Below are positions 6,483 to 53,967 of a stretch of 64,000 nt of DNA, one piece after another; within the stretch, counting starts at the first letter, position 1, and every line of letters begins with the position of its first letter. This DNA is from Amphibalanus amphitrite (Eukaryota; Arthropoda; Thecostraca; Balanomorpha; Balanidae). Under the pieces are notes generated by a model that was given only the letters and a program-made list of their open reading frames with translations, made no database searches and was not told where the DNA came from. The DNA lies in NCBI RefSeq assembly GCF_019059575.1, contig NW_024883462.1, positions 18,499 to 82,498 of the forward strand, given 5' to 3'. The translations under genes and the position numbers were made by a program.

Positions 6483-6496
6483 TTCGCTAGTCCTGA

Positions 6497-6514
6497 GTCC
6501 TGTCACGGTCGCCA
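6497..6514 (-). other. Probable primer binding site of the BEL/Pao element
   Basis: Two bases after the LTR end the minus strand reads TGGCGACCGTGACAGGAC. A stretch starting TGG at this position is where a tRNA 3' end primes minus-strand synthesis in LTR elements. The tRNA used was not identified. This position also explains why the reading frame should start at the ATG at 6482 and not at the GTG at 6506, which lies inside this site. Confidence 0.55.
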
Positions 6515-14715: not shown

Positions 14716-15186
14716 AGGGACCCTCCCACCTTCAAAAAAGTTAATGAATTGGCATGAAAGTGATGTCGCTCGGTTCAGAAAGAGCAAAAACGCATATCTA
14801 CCAAATTTCATCGAAAAATATTCACCGGTTTTCAAGATATTAGACTTATACTTTTGTTTACTTTTTGGGATCTCCGCTGTTCCTAGCGACTTTATTTGAA
14901 AGTGCGGCATTTGTTGCGCGCAAAGCAGCATATACCACCGCGTGCTACAAAACGTTTTAGTCAAACATTTAACGGACGTTCGAAAGCCTGATGACGTCAT
15001 CAGATTCCCGTAATGGTTAAGAGATAGGGACCACGCTGGTCCCACCCTGCAAGTAAAGGGAAGAAATTTCTTGAACACCATAAAGCTGCGGGGGTTGCGA
15101 CCAGGATAAATGGTGGTTTCTGAGCCTGGCCGCAAACTTGGCTATCTCAACTCAAAACTAATGTTAAGGTGGGAGGGTCCCTTTAA
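14712..15186. mobile_element. 475-bp TTAA-target MITE, copy 1
   Basis: Inverted ends TTAAAGGGACCCTCCCACCT / AGGTGGGAGGGTCCCTTTAA. The copy at 53493-53967 has the same 475-bp length; most of the first ~220 bases match it closely, while the middle differs. It has no coding capacity beyond a 150-codon chance frame. Confidence 0.82.
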
Positions 15187-26525: not shown

Positions 26526-28256
26526 TACTTATTAAAAAATATTTGACCTTAAAGGTCAAATCACGGATTGAAATTTTGAGTCCCCGATTGTTTTCTACAC
26601 CGATCGTCCGATCCGATTTCTGAAGGTCGCATTCGATAGCTAGGGTCAGCATCTCGAATTCCCTAGTATATACCTTATTAAAAATATTTGGCCTTAAAGG
26701 TCAAATCACGGATTGAAATTTTGAGTCCCCCTATTTTTTCTACACCGATCGTCCGATCCCATTTCTGATGGTCGCATTCGATAGCTAGGGTCAGAATCTC
26801 GAGTTCCCTAATATATACCTTATTAAAAATATTTGACCTTAAAGGTCAAATCACGGATTGAAATTTTGAGTCCCCTATTTTTTCTACACCGATCGTCCGA
26901 TCCAAATTCTGATGGTCGCATTCGATAGCTAGGGTCAGAATCTCGAGTTCCCTTATATATACCTTATTAAAAATATTTGACCTTAAAGGTCAAATCACGG
27001 ATATTTGACCTTAAAGGTCACATCACGGATTGAAATTTTGAGTCCCCAGATTTTTTCTACACCGATCGTCCGATCCGATTTCTGAAGGTCGCATTCGAAA
27101 GCTAGGGTCAGAATCTCGAATTCCCTATTATATACCTTATTAAAAATATTTGACCTTAAAGGTCAAATCACGGATCGAAATTTTGAGTCCCCCTATTTTT
27201 TCTACACCGATCGTCCGATCCAATTTCTGATGGTCGCATTCGATAGCCAGGGTCAGAATCTCGAGTTCCCTAATATATACCTTATTGTGAGATGATGTTT
27301 TTCGTACTCCAGCGTAGATGGGTAGCCATACGGCTTCCACGGTTGACAGTGATGACATCAAGGCTATAGAACTCCAGGTAAGGACACCAGCCGTTTGACC
27401 TTGATCGCCGCCGGCCGGCCGATGACGTCATTGGAGGCAAGCCGGCTCGGCGGACACACAAGGCGAATGCATAACGGAGGGGCGTTGGAACGTTGCGGGA
27501 GCCGGGGAGATATTTTAATGTGGTTGCATACCACCATTTTTATGTTGATTGATCTACAGACTGCATTCTTTTAAACCTCGATGCATCCTAGGCCTGGATG
27601 GTGCGTACATTCGTGGAACGATCACCCCGTCCGACGTCCGTGGTCGAAGATGTCATAGTATTAAAGACACTAAGACGGGTGCAATGACGGCGATCCGATC
27701 CCGTCTCTGGCGAATCTAGAAGGGTCGTAAGGACCCAGACCGAATCTGACCGTCTATTTTTAGGGAAACGGGGTGGGTGAATTGACAACCGATGGCTTAA
27801 GAGATGATAAGGGATCCTGTCGTCGATTGTTGTTTGACAGACAACACATGTTGTACTGGGCGTATGACCATCAGAGGTAATGCCTGAACGTAGGCAGGCA
27901 TAATTGTTCTGTCATACTGTTTAGGAATATAAAATGGTAATGGAGATCATTGAGGATATGATCTCTACATTACAAGAAGGAATTCACTAATTACTACGGC
28001 CCATAGGGGCACCGCCGGAGCTGTTGTTTTGCCATCGGTCCCAGGCAACTCCAGGGAGCTGCAGTACCCGGCGGCCAAAGCGGCCACCTCGTCGACTCGC
28101 AGGTCCTGTGGGATTCCGTGATGCTTTAGTGCTTCACCCACAGAAGCACGGGCATAGCAGTAGCATGTGGGGCTAGGTGTCTGTCCACCTCTTCATTGGA
28201 AGAACATACAGCGCCTGGTCCCGCCGAAGCTCGGTATCGACCGTGACTTATTCACA

Positions 28257-28494
28257 ACTGGCGGATCCAGGAAGCGGTCTTGGACACTGCGGGGGCTTAC
28301 CCCAAAAAGGTTTCTCGGAATTAATTTAAAAAAAACTCGGATTTCGATTCCTAGCGCACTGCTGTGCAGTGTGATTAACCAACATTTTCTCAGAAAAGTT
28401 GTGAAGTTTTCTTTTATTCTCGAAAAGCGATTTCGGGCGCTGCCAATGTGGGGAAAGACATTTGCCCCAAATGCCTTCCCCTGTATCCGCCAGT
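28257..28494. mobile_element. Short inverted-repeat element (ACTGGCGGATCCAGG ends)
   Basis: Left end ACTGGCGGATCCAGG; right end CCCTGTATCCGCCAGTG. These ends resemble widespread hAT-type MITEs, but the flanks show no clear 8-bp duplication. Confidence 0.5.
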
Positions 28495-28944
28495 GGGTTG
28501 CCCCACTCCGAGCTTGACTAAAAACGTCTTCAAACCCCACCAGAAACCGATGGTAAGGTGAATTTAAATCCAATAACTCGTCTCTGTCTGCCCGCCTGAA
28601 TATACAACACATGGTACGGCACCCGGCCCTGTCTGAGCTATGAGCCGATCGTGATATTTTCGGCTTTCCCCATCCCAAGCTCGATTAGAAACGTTCTCCT
28701 TCCCCACCCGATTGCTGATGTCAATTCAAATTCAATACCTCATCCCTGTCTGCCCGACCATAACCCATTCATTGCACACCGTCCAGCGCCCGGCCCCGCC
28801 AGAAGTATCCTAGCGCGCTGAGCAGTTGCCTCCAGCCGCGTCATCGCGAGGCCCCGCGCGGCCCATAAATTAATACATTGCGCGAATGGCCGTGTCGCCC
28901 CCCTGGATGACATCAGTCATCTTTTGCAAGCTCGTTAAAGATTT

Positions 28945-29016
28945 GGGCTGTACGGGGACTCGAACCCCGGGCCTTTGGATTAGCGCTCCAATGCTCTACC
29001 TCTGAGCTATACAGAC
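28945..29016 (-). tRNA. tRNA-like gene, copy 1 (anticodon position reads GCT)
   Basis: The minus strand folds as a cloverleaf: acceptor 7 bp (one T-C mismatch), D stem GCTC/GAGC with AGAGGTA loop, anticodon stem TTGGA/TCCAA, five-base variable loop and T arm CGGGG-TTCGAGT-CCCCG. The anticodon loop is GCGCTAA, giving GCT (serine) by position, but base 33 is C where U is universal and the long serine variable arm is absent. It may be a pseudo-tRNA or a tRNA-derived repeat. A 13-bp inverted repeat (28928-28940 / 29023-29035) encloses it. Confidence 0.62.
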
Positions 29017-29198
29017 CAAGTACTTTAACGAGCTTTCTGCCAAGTTTTATGCGGATCATTCTTAGGTGTTGTTTTTATCCGCTGGGACTGAGAGCGTGAG
29101 ATGATGTTTTTCGTACTCCAGCGTAGATGGGTAGCCATACGGCTTCCATGGTTGACAGTGATGACATCAGTCATCTTTTGCAAGCTCGTTAAAGCTTT

Positions 29199-29270
29199 GG
29201 GCTGTACGGGGACTCGAACCCCGGGCCTTTGGATTAGCGCTCCAATGCTCTACCTCTGAGCTATACAGAC
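29199..29270 (-). tRNA. tRNA-like gene, copy 2
   Basis: Identical in sequence to the copy at 28945-29016, 254 bases downstream, within a tandem duplication of the whole segment. The same enclosing inverted repeat is present (29182-29194 / 29277-29289). Confidence 0.62.
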
Positions 29271-29314
29271 CAAGTACTTTAACGAGCTTTCTGCCAAGTT
29301 TTATGCGGATCATT

Positions 29315-29503
29315 CTTAGGTGTTGTTTTTATCCGCTGGGACTGAGAGCGTGAGATGATGTTTTTCGTACTCCAGCGTAGATGGGTAGCCATACGGCTTC
29401 CATCACTGTCAACCGTGGAAGCCGTATGGCTACCCATCTACGCTGGAGTACGAAAAACATCATCTCACGCTCTCAGTCCCAGCGGATAAAAACAACACCT
29501 AAG
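29315..29503. repeat. Large palindrome, 88-bp arms, 13-base spacer
   Basis: Left arm 29315-29402 (starting CTTAGGTGTTG) and right arm 29416-29503 are reverse complements by eye over their full length, separated by TCACTGTCAACCG. Confidence 0.88.
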
Positions 29504-31830
29504 GATATACCTTATTAAAAATATTTGACCTTAAAGGTCAAATCACGGATTGAAATATTGAGTCCCGCGATTTTTTCTACACCGATCGTCCGATCCGATT
29601 TCTGAAGGTCGCATTCGATAGCTAGGGTCAGAATCTCGAATTCCCTAATATATACCTTAATAAAAAATATTTGACCTTAAAGGTCAAATCACGGATTGAA
29701 ATTTTGAGTCCCCCTAATTTTTCTACACCGATCGTCCGATCCAATTTCTGACGGTCGCATTCGATAGCTAGGGTCAGAATCTCGAGTTCCCTAATATATA
29801 CCTTATTAAAAATATTTGACCTTAAAGTTCAAATCACGGATTGAAATTTTGAGTCCCCCTATTTTTTCTACAACGATCGTCCGAACCAATTTCTGATGGT
29901 CGCATTCGATAGCTAGGGTCAGAATCTCGAGTTCCCTAATATATAACTTATTAAAAATATTTGACCTTAAAGGTCAAATCACGGATTGAAATTTTGAATC
30001 CCCCTATTTTTTCTACACCGATCGGCCGATCCGAATTCTGATGGTCGCATTCGATAGCTAGGGTCAAAATCTCGAGTTCCTTAATATATACCTCATTAAA
30101 AATATTTGACATTAAAGGTCAAATCACGGATTGAAATTTTGAGTCCCCTATTTTTTCTACACCGATCGTCTGATCCGATTTCTGATGGTCGCATTCGATA
30201 GCTAGGGTCAGAATCTCGAGTTTCCTAATATATACCTTATTAAAAATATTTGACCTTAAAGGTCAAATCACGGATATTTGACCTTAAAAGTCACATCACG
30301 GATTGAAATTTTGAGTCCCGCGATTTTTTCTACACCGATCGTCCGATCCGATTTCTGAAGGTCGCATTCAATAGCTAGGGTCAGAATCTCGAATTCCCTA
30401 ATATATACCTTATTAAAAAATATTTGACCTTAAAGGTCAAATCACGGATTGAAATTTTGAGTCCCCCTATTTTTTCTACACCGATCGTCCGATCCAATTT
30501 CTGATGGTCGCATTCGATAGCTAGGGTCAGAATCTCGAGTTCCCGAATATATACCTTATTAAAAATATTTGACCTTAAAGGTCAAATCACGGATTGAAAT
30601 TTTGAGTCCCCCTATTTTTTTCTACACCGATCGTCTGATCCAATTTCTGATGGTCGCATTCGATAGCTAGGGTCAGAATCTCGAGTTCCCTAATATATAC
30701 CTTATTAAAAATATTTGACCTTAAAGGTCAAATCACGGATTGAAATTTTGAGTCCCCCTATTTTTTCTACACCGATCGTCCGATTCCATTTCTGATGGTC
30801 GCATTCGATAGCTAGGGTCAGAATCTCGAGTTCCCTAATATATACTTATTAAAAAATATTTGACCTTAAAGGTCAAATCACGGATTGAAATTTTGAGTCC
30901 CCGATTTTTTTCTACACCGATCGTCCGATCCGATTTCTGAAGGTCGCATTCGATAGCTAGGGTCAGAATCTCGAATTCCCTAGTATATACCTTATTAAAA
31001 ATATTTGGCCTTAAAGGTCAAATCACGGATTGAAATTTTGAGTCCCCCTATTTTTTCTACACCGATCGTCCGATCCCATTTCTGATGGTCGCATTCGATA
31101 GCTAGGGTCAGAATCTCGAGTTCCCTAATATATACCTTATTAAAAATATTTGACCTTAAAGGTCAAATCACGGATTGAAATTTTGAGTCCCCTATTTTTT
31201 CTACACCGATCGTCCGATCCAAATTCTGATGGTCGCATTCGATAGCTAGGGTCAGAATCTCGAGTTCCCTTATATATACCTTATTAAAAATATTTGACCT
31301 TAAAGGTCAAATCACGGATATTTGACCTTAAAGGTCACATCACGGATTGAAATTTTGAGTCCCCCGATTTTTTCTACACCGATCGTCCGATCCGATTTCT
31401 GAAGGTCGCATTCGAAAGCTAGGGTCAGAATCTCGAATTCCCTATTATATACCTTATTAAAAATATTTGACCTTAAAGGTCAAATCACGGATCGAAATTT
31501 TGAGTCCCCCTATTTTTTCTACACCGATCGTCCGATCCAATTTCTGATGGTCGCATTCGATAGCCAGGGTCAGAATCTCGAGTTCCCTAATATATACCTT
31601 ATTAAAAATATTTGACCTTAAAGGTCAAATCACGGATTGAAATTTTGAGTACCCCTATTTTTTCTACACCGATCGTCCGATCCGATTTCTGATGGTCGCA
31701 TTCGATAGCTAGGGTCAGGATCTCGAGTTCCCTTATATATACCTTATTAAAAATATTTGACCTTAAAGGTCAAATCACGGATATTTGACCTTAAAGGTCA
31801 CATCACGGATTGAAATTTTGAGTCCCCCTA

Positions 31831-34080
31831 TAAAGGTCAAATATTTTTAATAAGGTATATATTAGGGAATTCGAGATTGTGACCCTAGCTATCGAATGCG
31901 ACCTTCAGAAATCGGATCAGACGATCGGTGTAGAAAAAATCGGGGGACTTAAAATTTCAATCCGTGATGTGACCTTTAAGGTCAAATATCCGTGATTTGA
32001 CCTTTAAGGTCAAATATTTTTAATAAGATATATATTAGGGAACTCGAGATTCTGACCCTAGCTATCGAATGCGACCATCACAATTCGGATCGGACGATCG
32101 GTGTAGAAAAAATAGGGGACTCAAAATTTCATTCCGTGATTTGACCTTTAGGGTCAAATATTTTTAATAAGGTATATATCAAGGAACTCGAGATTCTGAC
32201 CCTAGCTATCGAATGCGACCATCAGAATTCGGATCGGACGATCGGTGTAGAAAAAATTGGGGACTCAAAATTTCAATCCGTGATTTGACCTTTAGGTCAA
32301 ATATTTTTAATAAGGTATATATTATGGAATTCGAGATTCTGACCCTAGCTATCGAATGCGACCTTCAAAAATCGGATCGGACGACCCGTGTAGAAAAAAT
32401 AGGGGGGTTCAAAATTTCAATCCGTGATTTGACCTTTAAGGTCAAATATTTTTAATAAGGTATATATTAGGGAACTCGAGATTCTGACCCTAGCTATCGA
32501 ATGCGACCATCAGAATTCGGATCGGACGATCGGTGTAGAAAAAATAGGGGGACTCAAAATTTCAATCCGTGATTTGACCTTAAAGGTCAAATATTTTTAA
32601 TAAGGTATATATTAGGGAACTCGAGATTCTGACCCTAGCTATCGAATGCGACCATCAGAAATTGGTTCGGACGATCGGTGTAGAAAAAATATGGGGACTC
32701 AAAATTTCAATCCGTGATTTCACCTTTAAGGTCAAATATTTTTAATAAGGTATATATTAGGGAATCCGAGATTCTGACCCTAGCTATCGAATGCGACCTT
32801 CAGAAATCGGATCGGGCGATCGGTGTAGAAAAAAATCGGGGACTCAAAATTTCAATCCGTGATGTGACCTTTAAGGTCAAATATCCGTGATTTGACCTTT
32901 AAGGTCAAATATTTTTAATAAGATATATGTTAGGGAACTCGAGATTCTGACCCTAGCTATCGAATGCGACCATCACAATTCGGATCGGACGATCGGTGTA
33001 GAAAAAATAGGGGGACTCAAAATTTCAATCCGTGATTTGACCTTTAAGGTCAAATATTTTTAATAAGGTATATATTAGGGAACTCGAGATTCTGACCCTA
33101 GCTATCGAATGCGACCATCAGAAATGGGTTCGGACGATCGGTGTAGAAAAAATAGGGGGACTCAAAATTTCAATCCGTGATTTGACCTTTAAGGTCAAAT
33201 ATTTTTAATAAGATATATATTAGGGAATTCGAGATTCTGACCCTAGCTATCGAATGCGACCTTCAGAAATCGGATCAGACGATCGGTGTAGAAAAAATCG
33301 GGGGACTCAAAATTTCAATCCGTGATGTGACTTTTAAGGTCAAATATCCGTGATTTGACCTTTAAGGTCAAATATTTTTAATAAGATTTATATTAGGGAA
33401 CTCGAGATTCTGACCCTAGCTATCGAATGCGACCATCAGAAATGGGATCGGACGATCGGTGTAGAAAAAATAGGGGGACTCAAAATTTCAATCCGTGATT
33501 TGACCTTTAAGGTCAAATATTTTTAATGAGATATATATTAGGGAACTCGAGATTCTGACCCTAGCTATCGAATGCGACCATCAGAAATTGGATCAGACGA
33601 TCGGTGTAGAAAAAATAGGGGGACTCAAAATTTCAATCCGTGATTTGACCTTTAAGGTCAAATATTTTTAATAAGGTATATATAAGGGAACTCGAGATTC
33701 TGACCCTAGCTATCGAATGCGACCATCAGAATTCGGATCGGACGATCGGTGTAGAAAAAATAGGGGACTCAAAATTTTAATCCGTGATTTGACCTTTAAG
33801 GTCAAATATTTTTAATAAGGTATATATTAGGGAACTCGAGATTCTGACCCTAGCTATCGAATGCGACCATCAGAAATTGGATCGGACGATCGGTGTAGAA
33901 AAAATAGGGGACTCAAAATTTCAATCCGTGATTTGACCTTTAAGGTCAAATATTTTTAATAAGGTATATATGAGGGAATTCGAGATTCTGACCCTAGCTA
34001 TCGAATGCAACCTTCAGAAATCGGATCGGACGATCGGTGTAGGAAAAATCGGGGACTCAATTTCAATCCGTGATTTGACC
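31831..34080 (-). repeat. 144-bp satellite A, right (inverted) array
   Basis: About 15 units of the same monomer in the opposite orientation. The switch occurs inside a unit at about 31831 with no spacer. Confidence 0.92.
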
Positions 34081-34337
34081 TTGAAGATGACCTTGAAATT
34101 TGAAATGAAAACGATATTCGGAATCAGCGTCCCAAACTGCATCGGATAGGTTGGGATTAGTTCAAATTCGGACTCGACGCTGAATCCGTCGCGGAATACG
34201 ACGCTAACTTCACGCACGTCTCATTTTAAGACAAATATTTAAGCTTTTTATCTATGGCATATTAGATCTAGATTAATTCCTAAAGTCCATTAAGTTCTTT
34301 GAGCAAATGAGCGCATTATACATGTGCATCATTAATT

Positions 34338-35219
34338 TTAACCCTCGCCGGCCCAGGTCATTTTGGGTCCTTCGACGGCACAGGGGGTACGATCCTCCCC
34401 CCTCACGTTTGGCCCCTGATCGAGATTGACCTTCACGGAAAAAGGAGCGTGTTGCGCGTCACGAGAGGAAGCCAATGACACCCAATTTTAAGGTTCTAGG
34501 TCATCGGTTGACCTTGCAGGTCAGGTCAATGACCAAAAAGTCGGGAAAATCGGGACCTGTTAGAAAGTCGTAAAGTGTGGCTGCTGTGGGGCTTTTCGGG
34601 GTGCTGATCACGAATATCGTGTTAGTTTTGATCACAGATGATGTATTCAAGCATTTTGACCAGGTCGGGTCAAGTCAGGTCAGGTCAAACAGTAGGAGTA
34701 GTGACGGTCATTCGTAGTACGTGTCAACCGCCTCTGACAGCTTTGTAACATGTTACGAAGGCACCTAAACTACTTCGTAAATGTTCAAATGGTTGCTAAA
34801 TTCGAATTCAGCCCCAAAAACTAGCCTAGAAACATGTAAAACTCGAAAAAGAGAGGCGAGGTCACCAAAGGTCAATGACCTGACCTGACCTTCATGTGAC
34901 CTTGGCATCCACTCTCTAATGCATGGGAGCAACTTCATATCACATGTTTGAACGTTTGAAACCACGAAAAGCTTGCAAACACGCGGTTGATGCGAGACGA
35001 CATACGCGGAATCGCGATTCCGGCCAAACATGGTCTCGGAAAGAAGGTCACAGGTCAAAGGTCATTTGGGTCAGGGTCATGCAATTTTAAGGGTAGGTGT
35101 AAAATTGATCAGTGCGAGGGTACTTTAAGTTTCGTCGCGATCGGCCGCTCTTTCCGCGAATTATTCGCGAAAAAAAACCTTAGGGGGTTGCATCAACCCC
35201 CTGTGCCGGCGAGGGTTAA
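34338..35219. mobile_element. TTAA-target (piggyBac-like) MITE, copy 2
   Basis: 882 bp including TTAA at both ends (34338-34341, 35216-35219). Termini TTAACCCTCGCCGGC / GCCGGCGAGGGTTAA are exact inverted repeats. It is the inverted relative of 1842-2729. The interior has tandem AGGTCA hexamers and no transposase. Confidence 0.82.
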
Positions 35220-38189: not shown

Positions 38190-38723
38190 TTAAAGTGACC
38201 ATCCCTGATCCCACCAACATAAGTTTTTGAGTTGAGATAGCCAAATTGGGGTCCCTGGCCTGCACTTACCGGTTTGGGCACTCACAGCATCGAGAAACTG
38301 ACCTTAATTCGGAGATATTTATAATTATACGTATATCTAAAATTTCAAAGTTGCAGCACTTTGGATTCAGAGGGGCTAATGCATTAGAATGCCCTCTAAA
38401 TTTGTGACGTCAGCGCAGATCTAGCGATTTTAAAATATTGCAATAAAATCTTTGCGAAGCAGTGGTGGTATATACTGTTTGCGCGCAACATCTGCCGCAC
38501 TTTTAACTTACCAAATTATTGCTTCCAAATGACGTCGTAGGAACAGCGAATGTTCCGAAAAGTAAACAAAAGTAATTGTCTAATATCTCAAAAACCAGTT
38601 ATATTATTCAAAGTTATATTTTTCAACGAAATTTCATAGACATTCTTTTTTGTTCACTATGAACCACGTGACACCACTTTTATGCCAATTCATAAACTTT
38701 TTTGAAGGCGGGAGGGTCCCTTT
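38190..38723 (-). repeat. Diverged copy of the 475-bp TTAA element family
   Basis: Reverse orientation: AGTTGAGATAGCCAAATTGG near the left end and AACTTTTTTGAAGGCGGGAG then GGTCCCTTTGA at the right match the 14712 and 53493 copies. The TTAA ends have decayed and the left limit is approximate. Confidence 0.65.
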
Positions 38724-41700
38724 GATTCATAGCCGTTTTCACGACTGCCATTCGGTACACATTTGGTGCAGCTTAGGTGCAGATCTGGTGCAGATTTGGT
38801 CAAATTAGGTTCAGTGTGTTTCTTAAAAGTTATTAGTTTGGGCTGCACCGCTGCTTATAGACCTTATTTTTCAAACTATATCAGACATTATTGTGGATTA
38901 AAACATTGAAATAAATTTATGATGCGAGGATATTTATTGCAAAAGAGACATGATGCAGATTTGGTCAAATTAGGTGCATTCGCCAGATAGACCGTCGTGA
39001 AAACGGCTATTATCGTCGTGCGGTATAAAACAAGTGCGTTTCTCACCTCATATGAAATAATAGTCCACCGAGGTAATTAAGAAAAGTTAACTACAGAACG
39101 GTGAATTTTATATCTATGTGCGTTTTATAGATCCTAGAAAGGAATATGCTAATTGGAAGCATTAAGTGTCTGCACCACTATGTTAAGCTGTAATTAGTTA
39201 TTCAATTAATTTTGCCGGCATCGTGCTCCTCTCGCCGACACGCGTCGAATGAATTTATTAGGTGCATACCTACCTATGTAGGCATCCGAGTATGTACGTT
39301 GACAAGTGTTGACCCTAAGATGTCAGCTTAGAAATTTGATCAAAGTATAAAATCATGTCCTGACGAGAAAATGTCATTGTTCGTATGAAATTCAAGAACC
39401 GCTCGTGGATTTAGCCCCATTCAAGACAGTCATGACGATACCGGCGCGGGTCTGCGGTCTGAAATTCGGCCGCTCTACTCGGAGCCGACGCGGCGGCGAT
39501 CGTCGGCGCAGACGCGCGCGCCGAGGCCACGTTGTCGGGAAGACGGTCGGCTGACGTCGGCGCAATGAGGGCCGGGGGAATGATCTGGGGGGGGGGGGGG
39601 GGCGGATGGACGCTGGTCCATACATCGTGAGGATGCGTTGTGAGTAACAATAAAATTAGTGAAAATACGGAAAGCGTAGGAAGACGGAAACATGGCAAAA
39701 TGCGAAACTGTTGCAGTTTAGGCAGTTAAACAAAGAACGCTTGACATCCGTTATCCTGCAATATAGGTACCTAGTCCTACATATGTAGGTACATGCATAG
39801 TACATACCTTACCTATACATATAATGCAAACCCGAAACGAGCCACGAGGCAATGCATGCATTCGTATTATGCGATTCGGCGCCGCAGCTTGCGGATGCAA
39901 AGGGTAATCGGTGACGGGTAAACGGACGAACATCCCCTGGTTGATTACCAACACTACTAACACGCCCGGCGGCGGTGGTATCGGATTCCGATGCGCTCGT
40001 TGATGACCGGCACACCCAATCAACTCGCCCAGGACTGGATGAGAACATTGGACATTTCTGTACATACAACCGACATTCCCAAGAGACGGACGTCCATGGC
40101 CCACGCTCAGTCAGGGCCTGCAGATGCACTGGATTGTCGCATGTTCTGTGTTCTGTGTTATCCATGAGTTCTCGGAGGTGTTTAACATCATCGATATATG
40201 GCTTCCGTCATAGCACCGTGGGACTTTTGTCGAGATAAATGTCTGGGACGCTGGCAACTCACACCATCGCGGTGTGTGTTGTGCGTGATAACTGATAACG
40301 CCATACGGCTTGCTGCTGAAGCTTTACGCATAGTGCGTAAACTCATAGGTAGCGTGATACGGTGAGCGACGACAAATCCACACATGAACATCGGCGTATT
40401 CGAGGATGCAGGACGCAGCTTCCGTAATTGAACGAAATGGGATTTAATTAGCACTCAATGTAGCCATTTTCTAAACGAAAAGGACGTCACGTAACTCATC
40501 TTATGTACATTTTTTACGAGGCATTACCGAGCACGTCAAAAGTCAATTTCACATTTTCTTCTATGCAAGCATAAAACTCATACCTATGAATAATGTTTCT
40601 CCTCATATGCAGTCTCTGTGCCTGTCCCACGCCACAAGTGCGACAAAACTACGATCCCCACATTTACAACACGTACAGAGACGTGACGGTTAGCTTACCC
40701 ATCACGGCCGTCACGTAGCGTTCTCCTCACAGCCGTCCCGGGACAGCGTCTAAATCGTGATATCACGGGCCTGGCAGCCAATTTGAGGACAATATCAGGG
40801 GCCACGGAGCACCGTCGTATGCAGAGAAAAGGAGCTGTGTGACCCCCTGCCCCGGGGTGTCAGTACTCAGTACGTCCTACGTCTTATACTGAGTGACTTT
40901 TGGTTACCTGAGACGGTTTTAGCACTGATACACCTATCCGAGAGCACCGCGGAGTCGGGGAGAGGTTCAGTCAAGACGCTGACTTGGCCAGGAGCAGGAG
41001 AGTCAGGTGCCGGGTGGGGGTCAGAAGCGGTCAACCCTCCCCCACTCGTCTACATCAGTGACGAGTGCGGGAGTGACACAGTGACGAGGGGACACTGCAC
41101 CTGCATTGCGCTGCACTAGGGATGTAAAAAAGACGATATAAGTGTTATGTGACGTGATGTGTTTCTCACCACGTAGATGTTCCTCGTCTCGTCAATCGTC
41201 ACCATGAAAGCGGTATAAGTATAATGGACGCTAATGCGCTCGCTCATAAAATTCATCATCTTCGTCGATATTTTTTTTTTTTTCAAACGATAGCTGGAAA
41301 AACAAAATGTTCGCCTTTTACAGAGCACACCAGCTGCTGAAAAGCTAGCATCTGCTGTACTGCAAAGCAATACTTATTCGACGATTCTGATTCAGTTTAT
41401 GGGGAGAGGCTCACGACTTGGCCTTAGGCTATACCCGACGAGGCGCACCCATGACCGATGTCCGATCAATACCGGCTCTATACCCCCGTGTTAGTCCTTC
41501 AGCGTCGTCCCATGGCCTCGCCGCAATGCCGCCGTTTCTATTAGCGGCACACCGGCTGCGATACAGTAGCGCTCCACAGCGACGTCCGCAGCTCTGTGTG
41601 CCCAGAACGGGCCTTATTGTCGAGTGGCGCGACACATGCAGTAGGTATTGACCTGTGTGCCCACACATCTACACTTTGGACACTGAATGAATGGTAACAC

Positions 41701-41951: not shown

Positions 41952-41989
41952 CAAGAGCATGATGTCCGTCAAGACAGCCCATATTCAGC

Positions 41990-44900
41990 CCAGATTCAGC
42001 CCGGATTCAGCCCAGATTCGGGACACCTCCGATCAAGCTGAAACTCACACACAATGTAGGCCATGACATGCCCGATCCAAAGTCCAAGTCATTCGGTGGC
42101 ACTCCCAGCCGTTTGACCTAGAGAGGTCAGCAAAGGTCACGTGGCCCAAATTTGCACAGCAGATTGTGGCCCACCCAGTAGAGCTAGAGCGCTAAAAATG
42201 GCACCAATCGACTCGCCAGCATCTAATCTTACTTTCCCAACACTCATTTGACCTCTCAAGGTCATGCGATGACCTAAGGTCATTTGTGGGCTATGTCGAA
42301 AATACACTTGCACAGCAGTTTTCGAGTAGATGGATTGACCGAATTCCAAATCAAAGCACATCATCGGGTAGCCCATAGGCCTTAGTAACTTTCCTTAAAA
42401 ACCGCTTTTCGATATGTGACCCCGTTTAACCTCTGCAGGTCAAAATGTGCAAATAAACGACACTCAATACGTCGCAGCCCGGATTCAGCCCAGATTCGGG
42501 ACACCTCCGATCAAGCTGAAACTCGCACACAATGTAGGCCATGACATGCCCAATCCACAGTCCAAGTCATTCGGTGGCACTCCTAGCCGTTTGACCTAGA
42601 GAGGTCAGCAAAGGTCACGTGGCCCAAATTTGCACAGCAGATTGTGGCCCACCCAGTAGAGCTAGAGCGCTAAAAATGGCACCAATCGACTCGCCAGCAT
42701 CTAATCTTACTTTCCCAACACTCATTTGACCTCTCAAGGTCATGCGATGACCTAAGGTCATTTGTGGGCTATGTCGAAAATACACTTGCACAGCAGTTTT
42801 CGAGTAGATGGATTGACCGAATTCCAAATCAAAGCACATCATCGGGTAGCCCATAGGCCGTAGTAACTTTCCTTAAAAAAGCTTTTCGATATGTGACCCC
42901 GTTTGACCTCTGCAGGTCAAAATGTGCAAATAAACGACACTCAATACGTCGCAGCCCGGATTCAGCCCAGATTCGGGACACCTCCGATCAAGCTGAAACT
43001 CGCACACAATGTAGGCCATGACATGCCCAATCCACAGTCCAAGTCATTCGGTGGCACTCCAAGCCGTTTCACCTAGAGAGGTCAGCAAAGGTCACGTGGC
43101 CAAAATTTGCACAGCAGATTGTGGCCCACTCAGTAGAGCTAGAGCGCTAAAAATGGCACCAATCGACTCGCCAGCATCTAATCTTACTTTCCCAACACTC
43201 ATTGGACCTCTCAAGGTCATGCGATGACCTAAGGTCATTTGTGGGCTATGTCGAAAATACACTTGCACAGCAGTTTTCGAGTAGATGGATTGACCGAATT
43301 CCAAATCAAAGCACATCATCAGGTAGCCCATAGGCCGTAGTAACTTTCCTTAAAAACCGCTTTTCGATATGTGATCCCGTTTAACCTCGGCAGGTCAAAA
43401 TGTGCAAATAAACGACACTCAATACGTCGCAGCCCGGATTCAGCCCAGATTCGGGACACCTCCGATCAAGCTGAAACTCGCACACAATGTAGGCCATAAC
43501 ATGCCCGATCCACAGTCCAAGTCATTCGGTGGCACTCCCAGCCGTTTGACCTAGAGAGGTCAGCAAAGGTCACGTGGCCCAAATTTGCACAGCAGATTGT
43601 GGCCCACCCAGTAGAGCTAGAGCGCTAAAAATGGCACCAATCGACTCGCCAGCATCTAATCTTACTTTCCCAACACTCATTTGACCTCTCAAGGTCATGC
43701 AATGACCTAAGGTCATTTGTGGGCTATGTCGAAAATACACTTGCACAGCAGTTTTCGAGTAGATGGATTGACCGAATTTCAAATCAAAGCACATTATCGG
43801 GTAGCCCATAGGCCGTAGTAACTTTTCCTAAAAACCGCTTTTCGATATGTGACCCCGTTTGACCTCGGCAGGTCAAAATGTGCAAATAAACGATACTCAA
43901 TACGTCGCAGCCCGGATTCAGCCCAGATTCGGGACACCTCCGATCAAGCTGAAACTCGCACACAATGTAGGCCATAACATGCCCAATCCACAGTCCAAGT
44001 CATTCGGTGGCACTCCCAGCCGTTTGACCTACATAGGTCAGCAAATGTCACGTGGCCCAAATTTGCACAGCAGATTGTGGCCCACCCAGTAGAGCTAGAG
44101 CACTAAAAATGGCACCAATCGACTCGCCAGCATCTAATTTTACTTTCCCAAGACTCATTTGACCTCTCAAGGTCATGCGATGACCTAAGGTCATTTGTGG
44201 GCTATGTCGAAAATACACTTGCACAGCAGTTTTCGAGTACATGGATTGACCGAATTCCAAATCAAAGCACATCATCGGGTAGCCCATAGGCCGTAGTAAC
44301 TTTGCTTAAAAACCGCTTTTCGATATGTGACCCCGTTTGACCTCTGCAGGTCAAAATGTGCAAATAAACGACACTCAATACGTCGCAGCCCGGATTCAGC
44401 CCAGATTCGGGACACCTCCGATCAAGCTGAAACTCGCACACAATGTAGGACATGACATGCCCAATCCACAGTTCAAGTCATTCGGTGGCACTCCTAGCCG
44501 TTTGACCTAGAGAGGTCAGCAAAGGTCACGTGGCCCAAATTTGCACAGCAGATTGTGGCCCACCCAGTAGAGCTAGAGCGCTAAAAGTGGCACCAATCGA
44601 CTCGCCAGCATCTAATCTTACTTTCCCAACACTCATTTAACCTCTCAAGGTCATGCGATGACCTAAGGTCATTTGTGGGCTATGTCGAAAATACACTTGC
44701 ACAGCAGTTTTCGAGTAGATGGATTGACCAAATTCCAAATCAAAGCACATCATCGGGTAGCCCATAGGCCGTAGTAACTTTCCTTAAAAACCGCTTTTCG
44801 ATATGTGACCCCGTTTGACCTCTGCAGGTCAAAATGTGCAAATAAACGACACTCAATACGTCGCAGCCCGGATTCAGCCCAGATTCGGGACACCTCCGAT

Positions 44901-45485
44901 CAAGCTGAAACTCGCACACAATGTAGGACATGACATGCCCAATCCACAGTGCAAGTCATTCGGTGGCACTCCCAGCCGTTTGACCTAGAAAGGTCAGCAA
45001 AGGTCACGTGGCCAAAATTTGCACAGCAGATTGTGGCCCACTCAGTAGAGCTAAAGCGCTAAAAATGGCACCAATCGACTCGCCAGCATCTAATCTTACT
45101 TTCCCAACACTCATTGGACCTCTCAAGGTCATGCGATGACCTAAGGTCATTTGTGGGCTATGTCGAAAATACACTTGCACAGCAGTTTTCGAGTAGATGG
45201 ATTGACCGAATTCCAAATCAAAGCACATCATCAGGTAGCCCATAGGCCGTAGTAACTTTGCTTAAAAACCGCTTTTCGATATGTGACCCCGTTTGACCTC
45301 TGCAGGTCAAAATGTGCAAATAAACGACACTCAATACGTCGCAGCCCGGATTCAGCCCAGATTCGGGACACCTCCGATCAAGCTGAAACTCGCACACAAT
45401 GTAGGCCATAACATGCCCGATCCACAGTCCAAGTCATTCGGTGGCACTCCCAGCCGTTTGACCTAGAGAGGTCAGCAAAGGTCAC
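41990..45485 (-). repeat. 478-bp satellite B, left array (about 7 units)
   Basis: Unit landmarks recur every 477-479 bases (e.g. GCACATCATCGGGTAGCCC near 42354, 42833, 43310, 43787). Units are 90-99% alike by eye. Each contains TGACCT/AGGTCA palindromes and a CACGTG hexamer. Confidence 0.95.
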
Positions 45486-48400
45486 GACATAGCCCACAAA
45501 TGACCTTAAGTCATCGCATGACCTTGAGAGGTCAAATGAGTGTTGGGAAAGTAAGATTAGATGCTGGCGAGTCGATTGGTGCCATTTTTAGCGCTCTAGC
45601 TCTACTGGGTGGGCCACAATCTGCTGTGCAAATTTGGGCGACGTGACCTTTGCTGACCTCTCTAGGTCAAACGGCTGGGAGTGCCACCGAATGACTTGGA
45701 CTGTGGATTGGGAATGTCATGGCCTACATTGTGTGCGAGTTTCAGCTTGATCGGAGGTGTCCCGAATCAGGGCTGAATCAGGGCTGAGACGTATTGAGTG
45801 TCGTTTATTTGCACATTTTGACCTGCCGAGGTCAAACGGGGTCACATATCGAAAAGCGGTTTTTAAGAAAAGTTACTACGGCCTATGGGCTACCCGATGA
45901 TGTGCTTTGATTTGGAATTCGGTCAATCCATCTACTCGAAAACTGCTGTGCAAGTGTATTTTCGACATAGCCTACAAATGACCTTAGGTCATCGCATGAC
46001 CTTGAGAGGTCAAATGAGTGTTGGGAAAGTAAGATTAGATGCTGGCGAGTCGATTGGTGCCATTTTTAGCGCTCTAGCTCTACTGGGTGGGCCACAATCT
46101 GCTGTGCAAATTTGGGCCACGTGACCTTTGCTGACCTCTGTAGGTCAAACGGCTGGGAGTGCCACCGAATGACTTGGACTGTGGATAGGGTATGTCATGG
46201 CCTACATTGTGTGCGAGTTTCAGCTTGATCAGAGGTGTCCCGAATCTGGGCTGAATCCGGGCTGCGACGTATTGAGTGTCGTTTATTTGCACATTTTGAC
46301 CTGCCGAGGTCAAACGGGGTCACATATCGAAAAGCGGTTTTTAAGGAAAGTTACTACGGCCTATGGGCTACCGGATGATGTGCTTTGATTTGGAATTCGG
46401 TCAATCCATCTACTCGAAAACTGCTGTGCAAGTGCATTTTCGACATAGCCCACAAATGACCTTAGGTCATCGCATGACCTTGAGAGGTCAAATGAGTGTT
46501 GGGAAAGTAAGATTAGATGCTGGCGAGTCGATTAGTGCCATTTTTAGCGCTCTAGCTCTACTGGGTGGGCCACAATCTGCTGTGCAAATTTGGGCCACGT
46601 GACCTTTGCTGACCTCTCTAGGTCAAACGGCTGGGAGTGCCACCGAATGACTTGGACTGTGGATTGGGCATGTCATGGCCTACATTGTGTGCGAGTTTCA
46701 GCTTGATCGGAGGTGTCCTGAATCAGGGCTGAATCCGGGCTGAGACGTATTGAGTGTCGTTTATTTGCACATTTTGACCTGCCAAGGTCAAACGGGGTGA
46801 CATATCGAAAAGCGGTTTTTAAGCAAAGTTACTACGGCCTATGGGCTACCCGATGATGTGCTTTGATTTGGAATTCGGTCAATCCATCTACTCGAAAACT
46901 GCTGTGCAAGTGTATTTTCGACATAGCCTACAAATGACCTTAGGTCATCGCATGACCTTGAGAGGTCAAATGAGTGTTGGGAAAGTAAGATTAGATGCTG
47001 GCGAGTCGATTGGTGCCATTTTTAGCGCTCTAGCTCTACTGGGTGGGCCACAATCTGCTGTGCAAATTTGGGCCACGTGACCTTTGCTGACCTCTGTAGG
47101 TCAAACGGCTGGGAGTGCCACCGAATGACTTGGACTGTGGATAGGGTATGTCATGGCCTACATTGTGTGCGAGTTTCAGCTTGATCAGAGGTGTCCCAAA
47201 TCTGGGCTGAATCCGGGCTGCGACGTATTGAGTGTCGTTTATTTGCACATTTTGACCTGCCGAGGTCAAACGGGGTCACATATCGAAAAGCGGTTTTTAA
47301 GCAAAGTTACTACGGCTTATGGGCTACCCGATGATGTGCTTTGATTTGGAATTCGGTCAATCCATCTACTCGAAAACTGCTGTGCAAGTGTATTTTCGAC
47401 ATAGCCTACAAATGACCTTAGGTCATCGTATGACCTTGAGAGGTCAAATGAGTGTTGGGAAAGTAAGATTAGATGCTGGCGAGTCGATTGGTGCCATTTT
47501 TAGCGCTCTAGCTCTACTGGGTGGGCCACAATCTGCTGTGCAAATTTGGGCCACGTGACCTTTTCTGACCTCTCTAGGTCAAACGGCTGGGAGTGCCACC
47601 GAATGACTTGGACTGTGGATCGGGCATGTCATGGCCTACATTGTGTGCGAGTTTCAGCTTGATCGGAGGTGTCCCGAATCTGGGCTGAATCCGGGCTGCG
47701 ACGTATTGAGTGTCGTTTATTTGCACATTTTGACCTGCCGAGGTCAAACGGGGTCACATATCGAAAAGCGGTTTTTAAGGAAAGTTACTACGGCCTATGG
47801 GCTACCGGATGATGTGCTTTGATTTGGAATTCGGTCAATCCATCTACTCGAAAACTGCTGTGCAAGTGCATTTTCGACATAGCCCACAAATGACCTTAGG
47901 TCATCGCATGACCTTGAGAGGTCAAATGAGTGTTGGGAAAGTAAGATTAGATGCTGGCGAGTCGATTGGTGCCACTTTTAGCGCTCTAGCTCTACTGGGT
48001 GGGCCACAATCTGCTGTGCAAATTTGGGCCACGTGACCTTTGCTGACCTCTCTAGGTCAAACGGCTGGGAGTGCCACCGAATGACTTGGACTGTGGATTG
48101 GGCATGTCATGGCCTACATTGTGTGCGAGTTTCAGCTTGATCGGAGGTGTCCTGAATCAGGGCTGAATCCGGGCTGAGACGTATTGAGTGTCGTTTATTT
48201 GCACATTTTGACCTGCCAAGGTCAAACGGGGTGACATATCGAAAAGCGGTTTTTCAGGAAAGTTACTACGGCCTATGGGCTACCCGATGATGTGCTTTGA
48301 TTTGGAATTCGGTCAATCCATCTACTCGAAAACTGCTGTGCAAGTGTATTTTTGACATAGCCTACAAATGACCTTAGGTCATCGCATGACCTTGAGAGGT

Positions 48401-51400
48401 CAAATGAGTGTTGGGAAAGTAAGATTAGATGCTGGCGAGTCGATTGGTGCCATTTTTAGCGCTCTAGCTCTACTGGGTGGGCCACAATCTGCTGTGCAAA
48501 TTTGGGCCACGTGACCTTTTCTGACCTCTCTAGGTCAAACGGCTGGGAGTGCCACCGAATGACTTGGACTGTGGATCGGGCATGTCATGGCCTACATTGT
48601 GTGCGAGTTTCAGCTTGATCGGAGGTGTCCCGAATCTGGGCTGAATCCGGGCTGCGACGTATTGAGTGTCGTTTATTTGCACATTTTGACCTGCCGAGGT
48701 CAAACGGGGTCACATATCGAAAAGCGGTTTTTAAGGAAAGTTACTACGGCCTATGGGCTACCGGATGATGTGCTTTGATTTGGAATTCGGTCAATCCATC
48801 TACTCGAAAACTGCTGTGCAAGTGCATTTTCGACATAGCCCACAAATGACCTTAGGTCATCGCATGACCTTGAGAGGTCAAATGAGTGTTGGGAAAGTAA
48901 GATTAGATGCTGGCGAGTCGATTAGTGCCATTTTTAGTGCTCTAGCTCTACTGGGTGGGCCACAATCTGCTGTGCAAATTTGGGCCACGTGACCTTTGCT
49001 GACCTCTCTAGGTCAAACGGCTGGGAGTGCCACCGAATGACTTGGACTGTGGATTGGGCATGTCATGGCCTACATTGTGTGCGAGTTTCAGCTTGATCGG
49101 AGGTGTCCTGAATCAGGGCTGAATCCGGGCTGAGACGTATTGAGTGTCGTTTATTTGCACATTTTGACCTGCCAAGGTCAAACGGGGTGACATATCGAAA
49201 AGCGGTTTTTAAGCAAAGTTACTACGGCCTATGGGCTACCCGATGATGTGCTTTGATTTGGAATTCGGTCAATCCATCTACTCGAAAACTGCTGTGCAAG
49301 TGTATTTTCGACATAGCCTACAAATGACCTTAGGTCATCGCATGACCTTGAGAGGTCAAATGAGTGTTGGGAAAGTAAGATTAGATGCTGGCGAGTCGAT
49401 TGGTGCCATTTTTAGCGCTCTAGCTCTACTGGGTGGGCCACAATCTGCTGTGCAAATTTGGGCCACGTGACCTTTGCTGACCTCTGTAGGTCAAACGGCT
49501 GGGAGTGCCACCGAATGACTTGGACTGTGGATTGGGCATGTCATGGCCTACATTGTGTGCGAGTTTCAGCTTGATCGGAGTTGTCCCGAATCAGGGCTGA
49601 ATCCGGGCTGAGACGTATTGAGTGTCGTTTATTTGCACATTTTGACCTGCCGAGGTCAAACGGGGTCACATATCGAAAAGCGGTTTTTAAGCGAATTTAC
49701 TACGGCTTATGGGCTATCCGATGATGTGCTTTGATTTGGAATTCGGTCAATCCATCTACTCGAAAACTGCTGTGCAAGTGTATTTTCGACATAGCCTACA
49801 AATGACCTTAGGTCATCGCATGACCTTGAGAGGTCAAATGAGTGTTGGGAAAGTAAGATTAGATTCTGGCGAGTCGATTGGTGCCATTTTTAGCGCTCTA
49901 GCTCTACTGGGTGGGCCACAATCTGCTGTGCAAATTTGGGCCACGTGACCTTTTCTGACCTCTCTAGGTCAAACGGCTGGGAGTGCCACCGAATGACTTG
50001 GACTGTGGATCGGGCATGTCATGGCCTACATTGTGTGCGAGTTTCAGCTTGATCGGAGGTGTCCCGAATCTGGGCTGAATCCGGGCTGCGACGTATTGAG
50101 TGTCGTTTATTTGCACATTTTGACCTGCCGAGGTCAAACGGGGTCACATATCGAAAAGCGGTTTTTAAGGAAAGTTACTACGGCCTATGGGCTACCGGAT
50201 GATGTGCTTTGATTTGGAATTCGGTCAATCCATCTACTCGAAAACTGCTGTGCAAGTGCATTTTCGACATAGCCCACAAATGACCTTAGGTCATCGCATG
50301 ACCTTGAGAGGTCAAATGAGTGTTGGGAAAGTAAGATTAGATGCTGGCGAGTCGATTGGTGCCATTTTTAGCGCTCTAGCTCTACTGGGTGGGCCACAAT
50401 CTGCTGTGCAATTTTGGGCCACGTGACCTTTGCTGACCTCTCTAGGTCAAACGGCTGGGAGTGCCACCGAATGACTTGGACTGTGGATTGGGCATGTCAT
50501 GGCCTACATTGTGTGCGAGTTTCAGCTTGATCGGAGGTGTCCTGAATCAGGGCTGAATCCGGGCTGAGACGTATTGAGTGTCGTTTATTTGCACATTTTG
50601 ACCTACCAAGGTCAAACGGGGTGACATATCGAAAAGCGGTTTTTCAGGAAAGTTACTACGGCCTATGGGCTACCCGATGAAATGCTTTGATTTGGAATTC
50701 GGTCAATCCATCTACTCGAAAACTGCTGTGCAAGTGTATTTTTGACATAGCCTACAAATGACCTTAGGTCATCGCATGACCTTGAGAGGTCAAATGAGTG
50801 TTGGGAAAGTAAGATTAGATGCTGGCGAGTCGATTGGTGCCATTTTTAGCGCTCTAGCTCTACTGGGTGGGCCACAATCTGCTGTGCAAATTTGGGCCAC
50901 GTGACCTTTGCTGACCTCTGTAGGTCAAACGGCTGGGTGTGCCACCGAATGACTTGGACTGTGGATTGGGCATGTCATGGCCTACATTGTGTGCGAGTTT
51001 CAGCTTGATCGGAGTTGTCCCGAATCAGGGCTGAATCCGGGCTGAGACGTATTGAGTGTCGTTTATTTGCACATTTTGACCTGCCGAGGTCAAACGGGGT
51101 GACATATCGAAAAGCGGTTTTTAAGGAAAGTTACTACGGCGTATGGGCTACCCGATGATGTGCTTTGATTTGGAATTCGGTCAATCCATCTACTCGAAAA
51201 CTGCTGTGCAAGTGTATTTTCGACATAGCCTACAAATGACCTTAGGTCATCGCATGACCTTGAGAGGTCAAATGAGTGTTGGGAAAGTAAGATTAGATTC
51301 TGGCGAGTCGATTGGTGCCATTTTTAGCGCTCTAGCTCTACTGGGTGGGCCACAATCTGCTGTGCAAATTTGGGCCACGTGACCTTTTCTGACCTCTCTA

Positions 51401-53430
51401 GGTCAAACGGCTGGGAGTGCCACCGAATGACTTGGACTGTGGATCGGGCATGTCATGGCCTACATTGTGTGCGAGTTTCAGCTTGATCGGAGGTGTCCCG
51501 AATCTGGGCTGAATCCGGGCTGCGACGTATTGAGTGTCGTTTATTTGCACATTTTGACCTGCCGAGGTCAAACGGGGTCACATATCGAAAAGCGGTTTTT
51601 GAGGAAAGTTACTACGGCCTATGGGCTACCGGATGATGTGCTTTGATTTGGAATTCGGTCAATCCATCTACTCGAAAACTGCTGTGCAAGTGCATTTTCG
51701 ACATAGCCCACAATTGACCTTAGGTCATCGCATGACCTTGAGAGGTCAAATGAGTGTTGGGAAAGTAAGATTAGATGCTGGCGAGTCGATTGGTGCCATT
51801 TTTAGCGCTCTAGCTCTACTGGGTGGGCCACAATCTGCTGTGCAATTTTGGGCCACGTGACCTTTGCTGACCTCTCTAGGTCAAACGGCTGGGAGTGCCA
51901 CCGAATGACTTGGACTGTGGATTGGGCATGTCATGGCCTACATTGTGTGCGAGTTTCAGCTTGATCGGAGGTGTCCTGAATCAGGGCTGAATCCGGGCTG
52001 AGACGTATTGAGTGTCGTTTATTTGCACATTTTGACCTGCCAAGGTCAAACGGGGTGACATATCGAAAAGCGGTTTTTCAGGAAAGTTACTACGGCCTAT
52101 GGGCTACCCGATGATGTGCTTTGATTTGGAATTCGGTCAATCCATCTACTCGAAAACTGCTGTGCAAGTGTATTTTTGACATAGCCTACAAATGACCTTA
52201 GGTCATCGCATGACCTTGAGAGGTCAAATGAGTGTTGGGAAAGTAAGATTAGATGCTGGCGAGTCGATTGGTGCCATTTTTAGCGCTCTAGCTCTACTGG
52301 GTGGGCCACAATCTGCTGTGCAAATTTGGGCCACGTGACCTTTGCTGACCTCTGTAGGTCAAACGGCTGGGTGTGCCACCGAATGACTTGGACTGTGGAT
52401 TGGGCATGTCATGGCCTACATTGTGTGCGAGTTTCAGCTTGATCGGAGTTGTCCCGAATCAGGGCTGAATCCGGGCTGAGACGTATTGAGTGTCGTTTAT
52501 TTGCACATTTTGACCTGCCGAGGTCAAACGGGGTGACATATCGAAAAGCGGTTTTTAAGGAAAGTTACTACGGCGTATGGGCTACCCGATGATGTGCTTT
52601 GATTTGGAATTCGGTCAATCCATCTACTCGAAAACTGCTGTGCAAGTGTATTTTCGACATAGCCTACAAATGACCTTAGGTCATCGCATGACCTTGAGAG
52701 GTCAAATGAGTGTTGGGAAAGTAAGATTAGATGCTGGCGAGTCGATTGGTGCCATTTTTAGCGCTCTAGCTCTACTGGGTGGGCCACAATCTGCTGTGCA
52801 AATTTGGGCCACGTGACCTTTGCTGACCTCTGTAGGTCAAACGGCTGGGAGTGCCACCGAATGACTTGGACTGTGGATTGGGCATGTCATGGCCTACATT
52901 GTGTGCGAGTTTCAGCTTGATCGGAGTTGTCCCGAATCAGGGCTGAATCCGGGCTGAGACGTATTGAGTGTCGTTTATTTGCACATTTTGACCTGCCTAG
53001 GTCAAACGGGGTCACATATCGAAAAGCGGTTTTTAAGCAAAGTTACTACGGCCTATGGGCTACCGGATGATGTGCTTTGATTTGGGATTCGGTCAATCCA
53101 TCTACTCGAAAACTGCTGTGCAAGTGTATTTTCGACATAGCCTACAAATGACCTTAGGTCATCGCATGACCTTGAGAGGTCAAATGAGTGTTGGGAAAGT
53201 AAGATTAGATGCTGGCGAGTCGATTGGTGCCATTTTTAGCGCTCTAGCTCTACTGGGTGGGCCACAATCTGCTGTGCAAATTTGGGCCACGTGACCTTTG
53301 CTGACCTCTCTAGGTAACGGCTGGGAGTGCCACCGAATGACTTGGACTGTGGATTACGCATGTCATGGCCTACATTGTGTGCGAGTTTCAGCTTGATCGG
53401 AGGTGTTCCGAATCTGGGCTGAATCCGGGC
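45486..53430 (+). repeat. 478-bp satellite B, right array (about 16-17 units)
   Basis: Same monomer, opposite orientation, beginning inside a unit at about 45486 with no spacer. Variants recur every third unit over much of the array (1434-bp higher-order repeat). Confidence 0.95.
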
Positions 53431-53492
53431 TGAATCTGGGCTGAATATGGGCTGTCTTGATCAACATCAAGAGCATGTAGGTACGGCCATAA

Positions 53493-53967
53493 TTAAAGGG
53501 ACCCTCCCACCTTCAAAAAAGTTAATGAATTGGCATGAAAGTGATGTCGCTCGGTTCAGAAAGAGCAAAAATGAATATCTACCAAATTTCATCGAAAAAT
53601 ATTCACCGATATTCAAGATATTAGACTTTTACTTTTGTTTACTTTTTGGGATCTCCGCTGTTCCTAGCGACTTTATTTGAAAGTGCGGCATTTGTTGCGC
53701 GCAAAGCAGCGTATACCACCGCGTGCTGCCAAACGTTTTAGTAAAAGATTTAAAAATCGTTAGATCTCCGCTGACGTCACAAATTCTAAGGGGGCATACC
53801 AATGCATTAGCCCCTTAGAATCCGAAAACTGCAAGTTTGAAATTCCATATCTCCGAATTAAAGCATTTTTCGATGTTGTGAATGCCCAAACCGGTATTTT
53901 CAGGCCATGGCCACCAATTTGGCTATCTCAACTCAAAACTAATGTTAAGGTGGGAGGGTCCCTTTAA
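53493..53967. mobile_element. 475-bp TTAA-target MITE, copy 2
   Basis: Inverted ends TTAAAGGGACCCTCCCACCT / AGGTGGGAGGGTCCCTTTAA with TTAA at 53493-53496 and 53964-53967. Same length as the 14712 copy. It sits only 15 bases from the target duplication of giant element B. Confidence 0.85.

Follow-up and report, generated by a model that had tools for sequence, protein, structure and literature searches.

The DNA analysed here (the window) is a 64,000-nucleotide stretch of contig NW_024883462.1 from the Amphibalanus amphitrite assembly GCF_019059575.1, and its most conspicuous feature is an 11.5-kb unit flanked by a direct duplication and composed of tandem 478-bp repeats that change direction once. 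The relevant coordinates are collected in Table 1, the borders of the unit having been set by a pattern of 279 ends found throughout the genome together with an empty site. The duplicated word CAAGAGCATG occurs exactly twice in the 64-kb window, in both cases beside the element. Comparison of the two termini confirmed that 57 of the 60 outermost bases were identical, the mismatches being positions 5-7; beyond base 60 there were further mismatches at 61, 86, 111-113 and 119, the likeness continuing past the end sequences proper because the arms are themselves inverted repeats.

Each end of the element consists of a short head, made up of ATGTNNNTCAAGACAGCCC plus 11-bp subrepeats, inward of which lies an inverted arm in the form of a 478-bp tandem array. 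About four of the 11-bp subrepeats stand in tandem in each head, and two of them reappear at every unit boundary, a recurrence from which it would seem that the 478-bp units are repeated copies of an original arm. Between the heads only 478-bp units were present, pointing inwards from both sides: Tandem Repeats Finder returned 7.3 copies for the left array and 16.6 for the right, each with 97% matches, and mapping onto the unit gave a single turn. No coding frame was present in the element, all stop-free stretches being of 85 codons or fewer. The initial annotation, which was made from the letters alone, had described inverted termini matching over about 50 bases, a 10-bp flanking duplication, and a body containing only 478-bp units with one change of direction (about 7 units one way and 16-17 the other), all of which were borne out by these measurements.

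Table 1. Coordinates of the principal features of the window.
Feature	Position	Strand	Remarks
Whole foldback element	41962..53467		11,506 bp
Left target-site duplication	41952..41961		CAAGAGCATG; exact 10-bp match to 53468-53477
Right target-site duplication	53468..53477		CAAGAGCATG
Left head	41962..42007	+	ATGTCCGTCAAGACAGCCCATATT, then 11-bp subrepeats of CAGCCCAGATT type
Left arm	41997..45486	+	seven complete 478-bp units, then ~134 bp of the next
Turning point	45485..45486		134/291 in unit coordinates, with a two-base overlap
Right arm	45485..53433	-	16.6 units of 478 bp
Right head	53422..53467	-	begins ATGTTGATCAAGACAGCCCATATT on the minus strand
Empty-site counterpart of copy C1092	14347..14355	-	CATTCCTGG; in another copy of the repeat into which C1092 was inserted
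Second giant foldback element	23748-34219		ends ACGTGCGTGAAGTTAGCG; 145-bp units in inverted arms, other sequence between
MITE-like repeat	53493-53967, 14712-15186, 38209-38736		ends AAAGGGACCCTCCCACCTT; complete at 14712-15186

Searches of the 807.6-Mb host assembly with a 30-base end pattern yielded 279 exact matches (144 forward and 135 reverse), while the reversed pattern used as a control yielded none, a result that excludes a chance origin of the ends. A shorter probe, comprising 23 bases of the end and tolerating as many as two mismatches, gave 451 matches and again none in the control. At least 72 inward-facing pairs were assembled, spanning 1,223-26,843 bp with a median of 6,795 bp; these represent a partial sample drawn from the ends among the matches listed, in that the pairing omitted 26 listed ends (one on C1, twenty-one of the ATGTTGA type and four of the ATGTCCG type), incorporated seven partner ends from separate searches, and left 42 entered ends without a partner. 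Mixed pairs, with ATGTCCG at one end and ATGTTGA at the other, accounted for 55 of the 72. It was apparent from these data that the elements are a mobile family of the host genome with many dispersed copies.

The repeat unit itself was equally widespread. A 33-base unit probe, used with up to two mismatches, matched 2,214 places (control 0), corresponding to roughly 1 Mb of units. A by-eye count of the 100 places listed placed 87 in clusters containing both directions, each such cluster having plus units first and minus units after; the remaining 13 stood alone or in twos and threes sharing one direction, several of them within paired elements, and none of the 100 listed belonged to a larger group of one direction. 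The cuticle-protein domain PF00379, which marks arthropods, was matched at all 150 places scored out of 705 candidates, in agreement with an arthropod host. Two contigs, C8 and C391, gave cuticle-domain matches with equal scores in equal order, which suggests uncollapsed haplotypes, and the copy counts may therefore be inflated.

Flanking sequences were compared on both sides for 42 of the 72 pairs (28 and 14 in two rounds, with C280 left out of the tally). Exact duplications were confirmed in 35 of the 42, the length being nine bp in 22 copies and ten bp in 13, and no exact duplication shorter than 9 bp was found among the copies so tested. All eleven of the pairs longer than 11 kb were included, and nine of these had an exact duplication, the 26.8-kb copy C1508 among them; the other two were C96 and C367. 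The initial annotation had made its proposal depend on other copies having 9-10 bp duplications at these same borders, and this the great majority of those compared had.

Empty sites were located for two copies. The one corresponding to the window copy lies on contig C601, where the left flank is present and the element sequence absent: C601 runs through a single CAAGAACATG into TACGGCC, where the window instead has CAAGAGCATG followed by TAGGTACGGCC. The duplication word is thus held once by C601, with one substitution relative to the window. Identity between the two was approximately 82% in the left flank and 94% in the right flank (from 53964), and C601 may be either the other haplotype or a duplicated segment. 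The repeat adjoining the window element at 53493-53967, which resembles a miniature inverted-repeat transposable element (MITE), was also absent from C601. The second empty site lies in the window itself, where CATTCCTGG occurs once at the point corresponding to the insertion of copy C1092, and on both sides of C1092 at its own locus; the same word is also found 19 bp away, where it forms part of an older tandem repeat of 19 bp that is common to the two places. The exact duplications and the empty sites together identify the element as an insertion rather than a captured or chance structure, so that the transposon-like unit originally proposed is upheld in this respect.

Turning points were mapped in ten copies, namely the window copy and nine others, six of them read whole and three in part; the six were picked for their small size, and no trend of length with age is claimed. 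Satellite arms pointing inwards were present in all ten, with at most 14 bp of unassigned sequence between the arms and no core. The central meeting positions were of nine kinds. Only the window copy and C1508 had the same turning point, at which unit position 134 meets 291 (134/291), those of the other eight mapped copies being 453/203, 331/218, 262/297, 319/248, 338/291, 281/196, 284/167 and 389/72. The junctions of the window copy and C1508 align without gaps, at different insertion sites and in elements of 11.5 and 26.8 kb respectively; the simplest reading is that both descend from one two-armed element, the arm length of which changed later. Pair lengths modulo 478 gave no single remainder, as would be expected given that the turning points differ, and the use of size modulo 478 as a clock was rejected.

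Distances among 116 units from 13 copies averaged 0.0229 within a copy and 0.0357 between copies, a difference reached in none of 1000 label permutations, which ignore relatedness. The nearest neighbour of a unit lay in its own copy in 67 cases and in another copy in 49. Signs of block duplication within some arms were seen in these comparisons: a three-unit block recurs in the right arm of C72, its units differing from their counterparts by 2, 0 and 0 per 1000, and in C1544 three successive units reappear six units further on, each with 4 differences per 1000. For the right arm of the window copy, lag 3 was the closest of lags 1-8 (15.3 differences per 1000 as against 26.6 at lag 1). Near-identical unit pairs of the block type were found neither in the left arm of the window copy nor in the right arm of C103. 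Such blocks lend support to the alternative first put forward alongside insertion of a ready-made array, namely that the array grew within an inserted MITE.

With regard to class, the inverted arms of tandem units, the short duplication of fixed length, and an arm length that varies both between copies and between arms make foldback elements the closest known kind, a name that the initial annotation had not used. Target duplications measure 8 bp in hAT elements and 7-8 bp in P elements, while Helitrons and Helentrons produce none and have asymmetric ends; the exact duplications of the present family are of nine or ten bp, and its ends are inverted. For Mutator-like elements (MULEs), target duplications of 8-11 bp are given in the portion of the source available (PMC6446971), a range that accommodates all 35 exact duplications. 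MULE-domain matches numbered 111 in the host genome, several of them in long open frames. Since no autonomous partner was found, the Mutator-like label derives from duplication length, and on that basis membership of the foldback family among the MULEs is probable. The earlier call of a Mutator-like class accordingly holds as far as duplication length is concerned. At two of the MULE loci, GGTCA-rich stretches beside the gene were at first read as foldback arms; several of these look like other repeats with CCC.../...GGG ends, and they were discarded as evidence.

Taken together, the data make it highly probable that the window element is a non-autonomous cut-and-paste DNA transposon of foldback type with satellite arms. 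Its transposase would probably act in trans and would most likely be of Mutator-like type; it would bind the heads, and perhaps also repeated sites in the units, and so move the whole element. Between or after such moves, unequal exchange or slippage may make the arms longer or shorter, and repeated deletion and rejoining at the palindromic centre may give each lineage its own turning point.

A number of observations weigh against this interpretation. None of the 111 MULE-domain matches lay within 30 kb of any of the 72 pairs; no transposase gene or autonomous partner was found in the window copy or in the genome search for MULE domains; and these ends were likewise absent from the parts read of six MULE loci, for two of which longer flanks were included. 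Exact duplications were missing in seven of the 42 copies: that of C19b has one mismatch in nine, those of C36a, C367 and C1390 appear on reading to be shifted by small insertions, and the flanks of C5, C72 and C96 match only with three mismatches in nine or ten. Since the search for copies relied on exact ends, decayed ones are under-represented, and the 35/42 rate applies to well-kept copies. The order of units in the window copy is not collinear with that in C1508, and for this reason intact movement of a long array is not demonstrable; a copy as large as 27 kb may have been transposed at full size or may have expanded once inserted. The original suggestion that the whole array was inserted as one element also has support, in that the 134/291 junction at two different sites shows that a two-armed structure was copied.

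It is on the travel of long arrays that the most serious alternative turns. Under it a short two-armed element, with about one unit per arm as in the 1.2-kb copy on C2, was inserted and the array expanded locally afterwards; only the proposal that long arrays travel is thereby opposed, the remainder of the explanation being common to both. The units of C72 are unusually alike (mean distance 0.008-0.015, as against 0.021-0.039 to other less diverged copies), block duplications sit inside single arms, the window copy and C1508 have very unequal lengths about a common turning point, and arms of about one unit each are indeed found in one copy, all of which would be in keeping with growth in place. 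Against it, segregating unit variants are shared among the window copy, C1508 and C1544 at 5, 5 and 3 sites where independent sites would lead one to expect 1.1, 1.2 and 0.6, and private alleles are also shared, 7 between the window copy and C1508 and 11 between C1508 and C1544, compared with none between the window copy and C1544 and 0-2 for other pairs. Such sharing suggests that multi-unit arms preceded dispersal, although later exchange between copies could also explain it, and growth in place is considered to be a genuine possibility that falls somewhat short of an even chance.

Far less probable is the capture of an ordinary satellite array between transposon ends, or a satellite merely flanked by transposons. 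The body is a satellite by structure, and the 13 listed unit places that were single or in one-direction groups might be taken in its favour; however, several of those lie in paired elements, the arms point inwards in every mapped copy with the same heads at the borders read, and long one-direction groups were absent from the listed places. Moreover, the recurrence of the 11-bp head subrepeats at unit boundaries indicates that unit and head share an origin. Assignment to another superfamily (hAT, P/Galileo-like or Helitron) in place of the Mutator-like one is judged unlikely: the foldback form has arisen elsewhere too, Galileo being a member of the P superfamily according to the part of the report available (PMC3573991), and no MULE gene is tied to these ends, whereas none of the 35 exact duplications is of 8 bp or less, a typical Helitron is excluded by the duplications and inverted ends, and MULE-domain genes are present in the host genome. 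An assembly artefact is scarcely credible. Inverted tandem arrays of such length pose difficulties for assembly, so that the unit counts may be wrong, and the assembly has apparent uncollapsed duplicate stretches (C8 and C391); the borders, duplications and empty sites are nevertheless independent of array length, and the same architecture recurs on many contigs.

Among known systems, FB of Drosophila melanogaster has inverted arms of variable length composed of tandem subrepeats, and 9-bp duplications; its subrepeats are tens of bases long, whereas the present family has 478-bp units plus an 11-bp layer at the heads. The nearest system is Tetris of Drosophila virilis, compared here by description only and, like the other published families below, from those portions of the source that were available. 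Tetris is likewise a foldback element with terminal inverted repeats, internal tandem repeats (~220 bp) that share sequence with its outermost domain, 8-10 bp duplications, a variable number of units and no transposase found; membership of Mutator has been suggested, and it has been described as a source of satellite arrays (PMC4079207). It differs in having inner and middle domains, where the present arms meet without a middle domain, and in its scale, three structurally complete copies with inverted repeats of up to 1,735 bp being reported and large arrays being suggested by the authors to have possibly disrupted transposition (PMC4079207); by way of contrast, the family described here has a 26.8-kb copy with an exact duplication.

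Tm1, a Mutator/Foldback family of root-knot nematodes, resembles the present elements in its composite FB-like inverted repeats of variable length and its 9-bp duplications, and some of its members have a Phantom-type MULE transposase (PMC3169594). It differs in that some copies encode a transposase, none having been found in the present family, and 478-bp satellite arms are not among the features described in the part of the source available (PMC3169594). Galileo also has inverted repeats with internal tandem repeats unequal in number between the arms, which in one subfamily are said to hold secondary transposase-binding sites, and convergent expansion of tandem repeats in the arms is described; it is distinguished by its P-superfamily affiliation, by inverted repeats of up to ~1.26 kb, and by transposase sequence kept in some copies (PMC3573991). 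Phantom and Rehavkus MULEs have duplications of 8-10 or 9 bp, minisatellites in some members and arthropod hosts, the difference being that they carry transposase genes (PMC6446971). A 2025 review presents internal array growth in MITEs as a route to satellites (PMC12628747). A partial literature search, covering titles and the openings of abstracts, found no family with wholly satellite arms, no core and ~27-kb copies. What is new relative to Tetris, Tm1 and FB is that the arms meet without a core, that copies reach 27 kb, and that the window also contains another family built in a similar way.

In this family the satellite DNA is itself the body of the transposon, so that a satellite is dispersed by transposition, its length altering within the copies. 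Dispersal and amplification of a satellite are thereby made testable, in that hundreds of ends mark the copies, empty sites exist, and the turning point serves as a lineage tag. For one set of Pack-MULEs, a review available in part gives a maximum of 7 kb (PMC6431247). The nine pairs longer than 11 kb with exact duplications are well above that figure, and if long copies do move whole, the size limits of this class of transposase would need rethinking.

The 478-bp unit was also found to be rich in the hexamer AGGTCA. It contains nine AGGTCA/TGACCT half-sites, eight of them arranged as back-to-back pairs, whereas 2,000 shuffles averaged 0.27 and reached 3 at most, and the whole window element contains 208. 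The flanks of other copies, 34 in number, showed a five-fold excess of the motif (58 as against 11.5 per strand); 13 of these flanks held three or more and 12 none, and the motif is also present in the second foldback family of the window. Half-sites were further observed to cluster in several repeats, at window positions 34338-35218 and in flanks L003, L006, L014, L018, L023 and L034, one such repeat being a TTAA-flanked element with ends AACCCTCGCCGGC. Motif columns varied less than others in the unit (0.0119 as against 0.0257); the reduction was not significant (p = 0.06), and selection on these columns was not adopted as an explanation.

The motif may serve as a site for a transposase or for a host factor, or may reflect shared ancestry among the repeats. 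The WRKY-type zinc finger of MULE transposases binds TTGACC (the W-box). A connection of this kind was not supported: in two open frames that are possibly incomplete, Pfam identified MULE and SWIM domains but neither WRKY nor FLYWCH, and the idea was further weakened by enrichment of the motif outside these families. It is conceivable, if rather doubtful, that the satellite arms act as amplifiers of protein-binding sites, with selection for binding by transposase or a host factor (for example a nuclear receptor) driving array growth; were this so, each transposition would drop many candidate sites, hundreds in the case of long copies, at a new place. No comparable AGGTCA-bearing transposon appeared among the papers listed in a separate literature search on the motif.

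The second giant foldback element is flanked by the 9-bp duplication CTCATTTTA at 23739-23747 and 34220-34228, as checked in the window copy only. Its end region gave at least 40 scored matches genome-wide, among which nine inward pairs approximately 4 to 20 kb apart were recognised by eye. A by-eye comparison of its first 17 end bases found 12 in agreement with the ATGTCCG end and 10 with the ATGTTGA end of the first family, a likeness that hints at related transposases. The second element also includes, at 28906-29403, a tandem duplication (99% identity) of a 254-bp unit with a tRNA gene in it. Rfam, run on the window at gathering scores, returned two tRNAs only, both outside the 41962-53467 element. 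Elsewhere in the window, an open frame of 772 codons on the minus strand at 4188-6506 resembles the start of the gag-pol region of a BEL/Pao-type retroelement.

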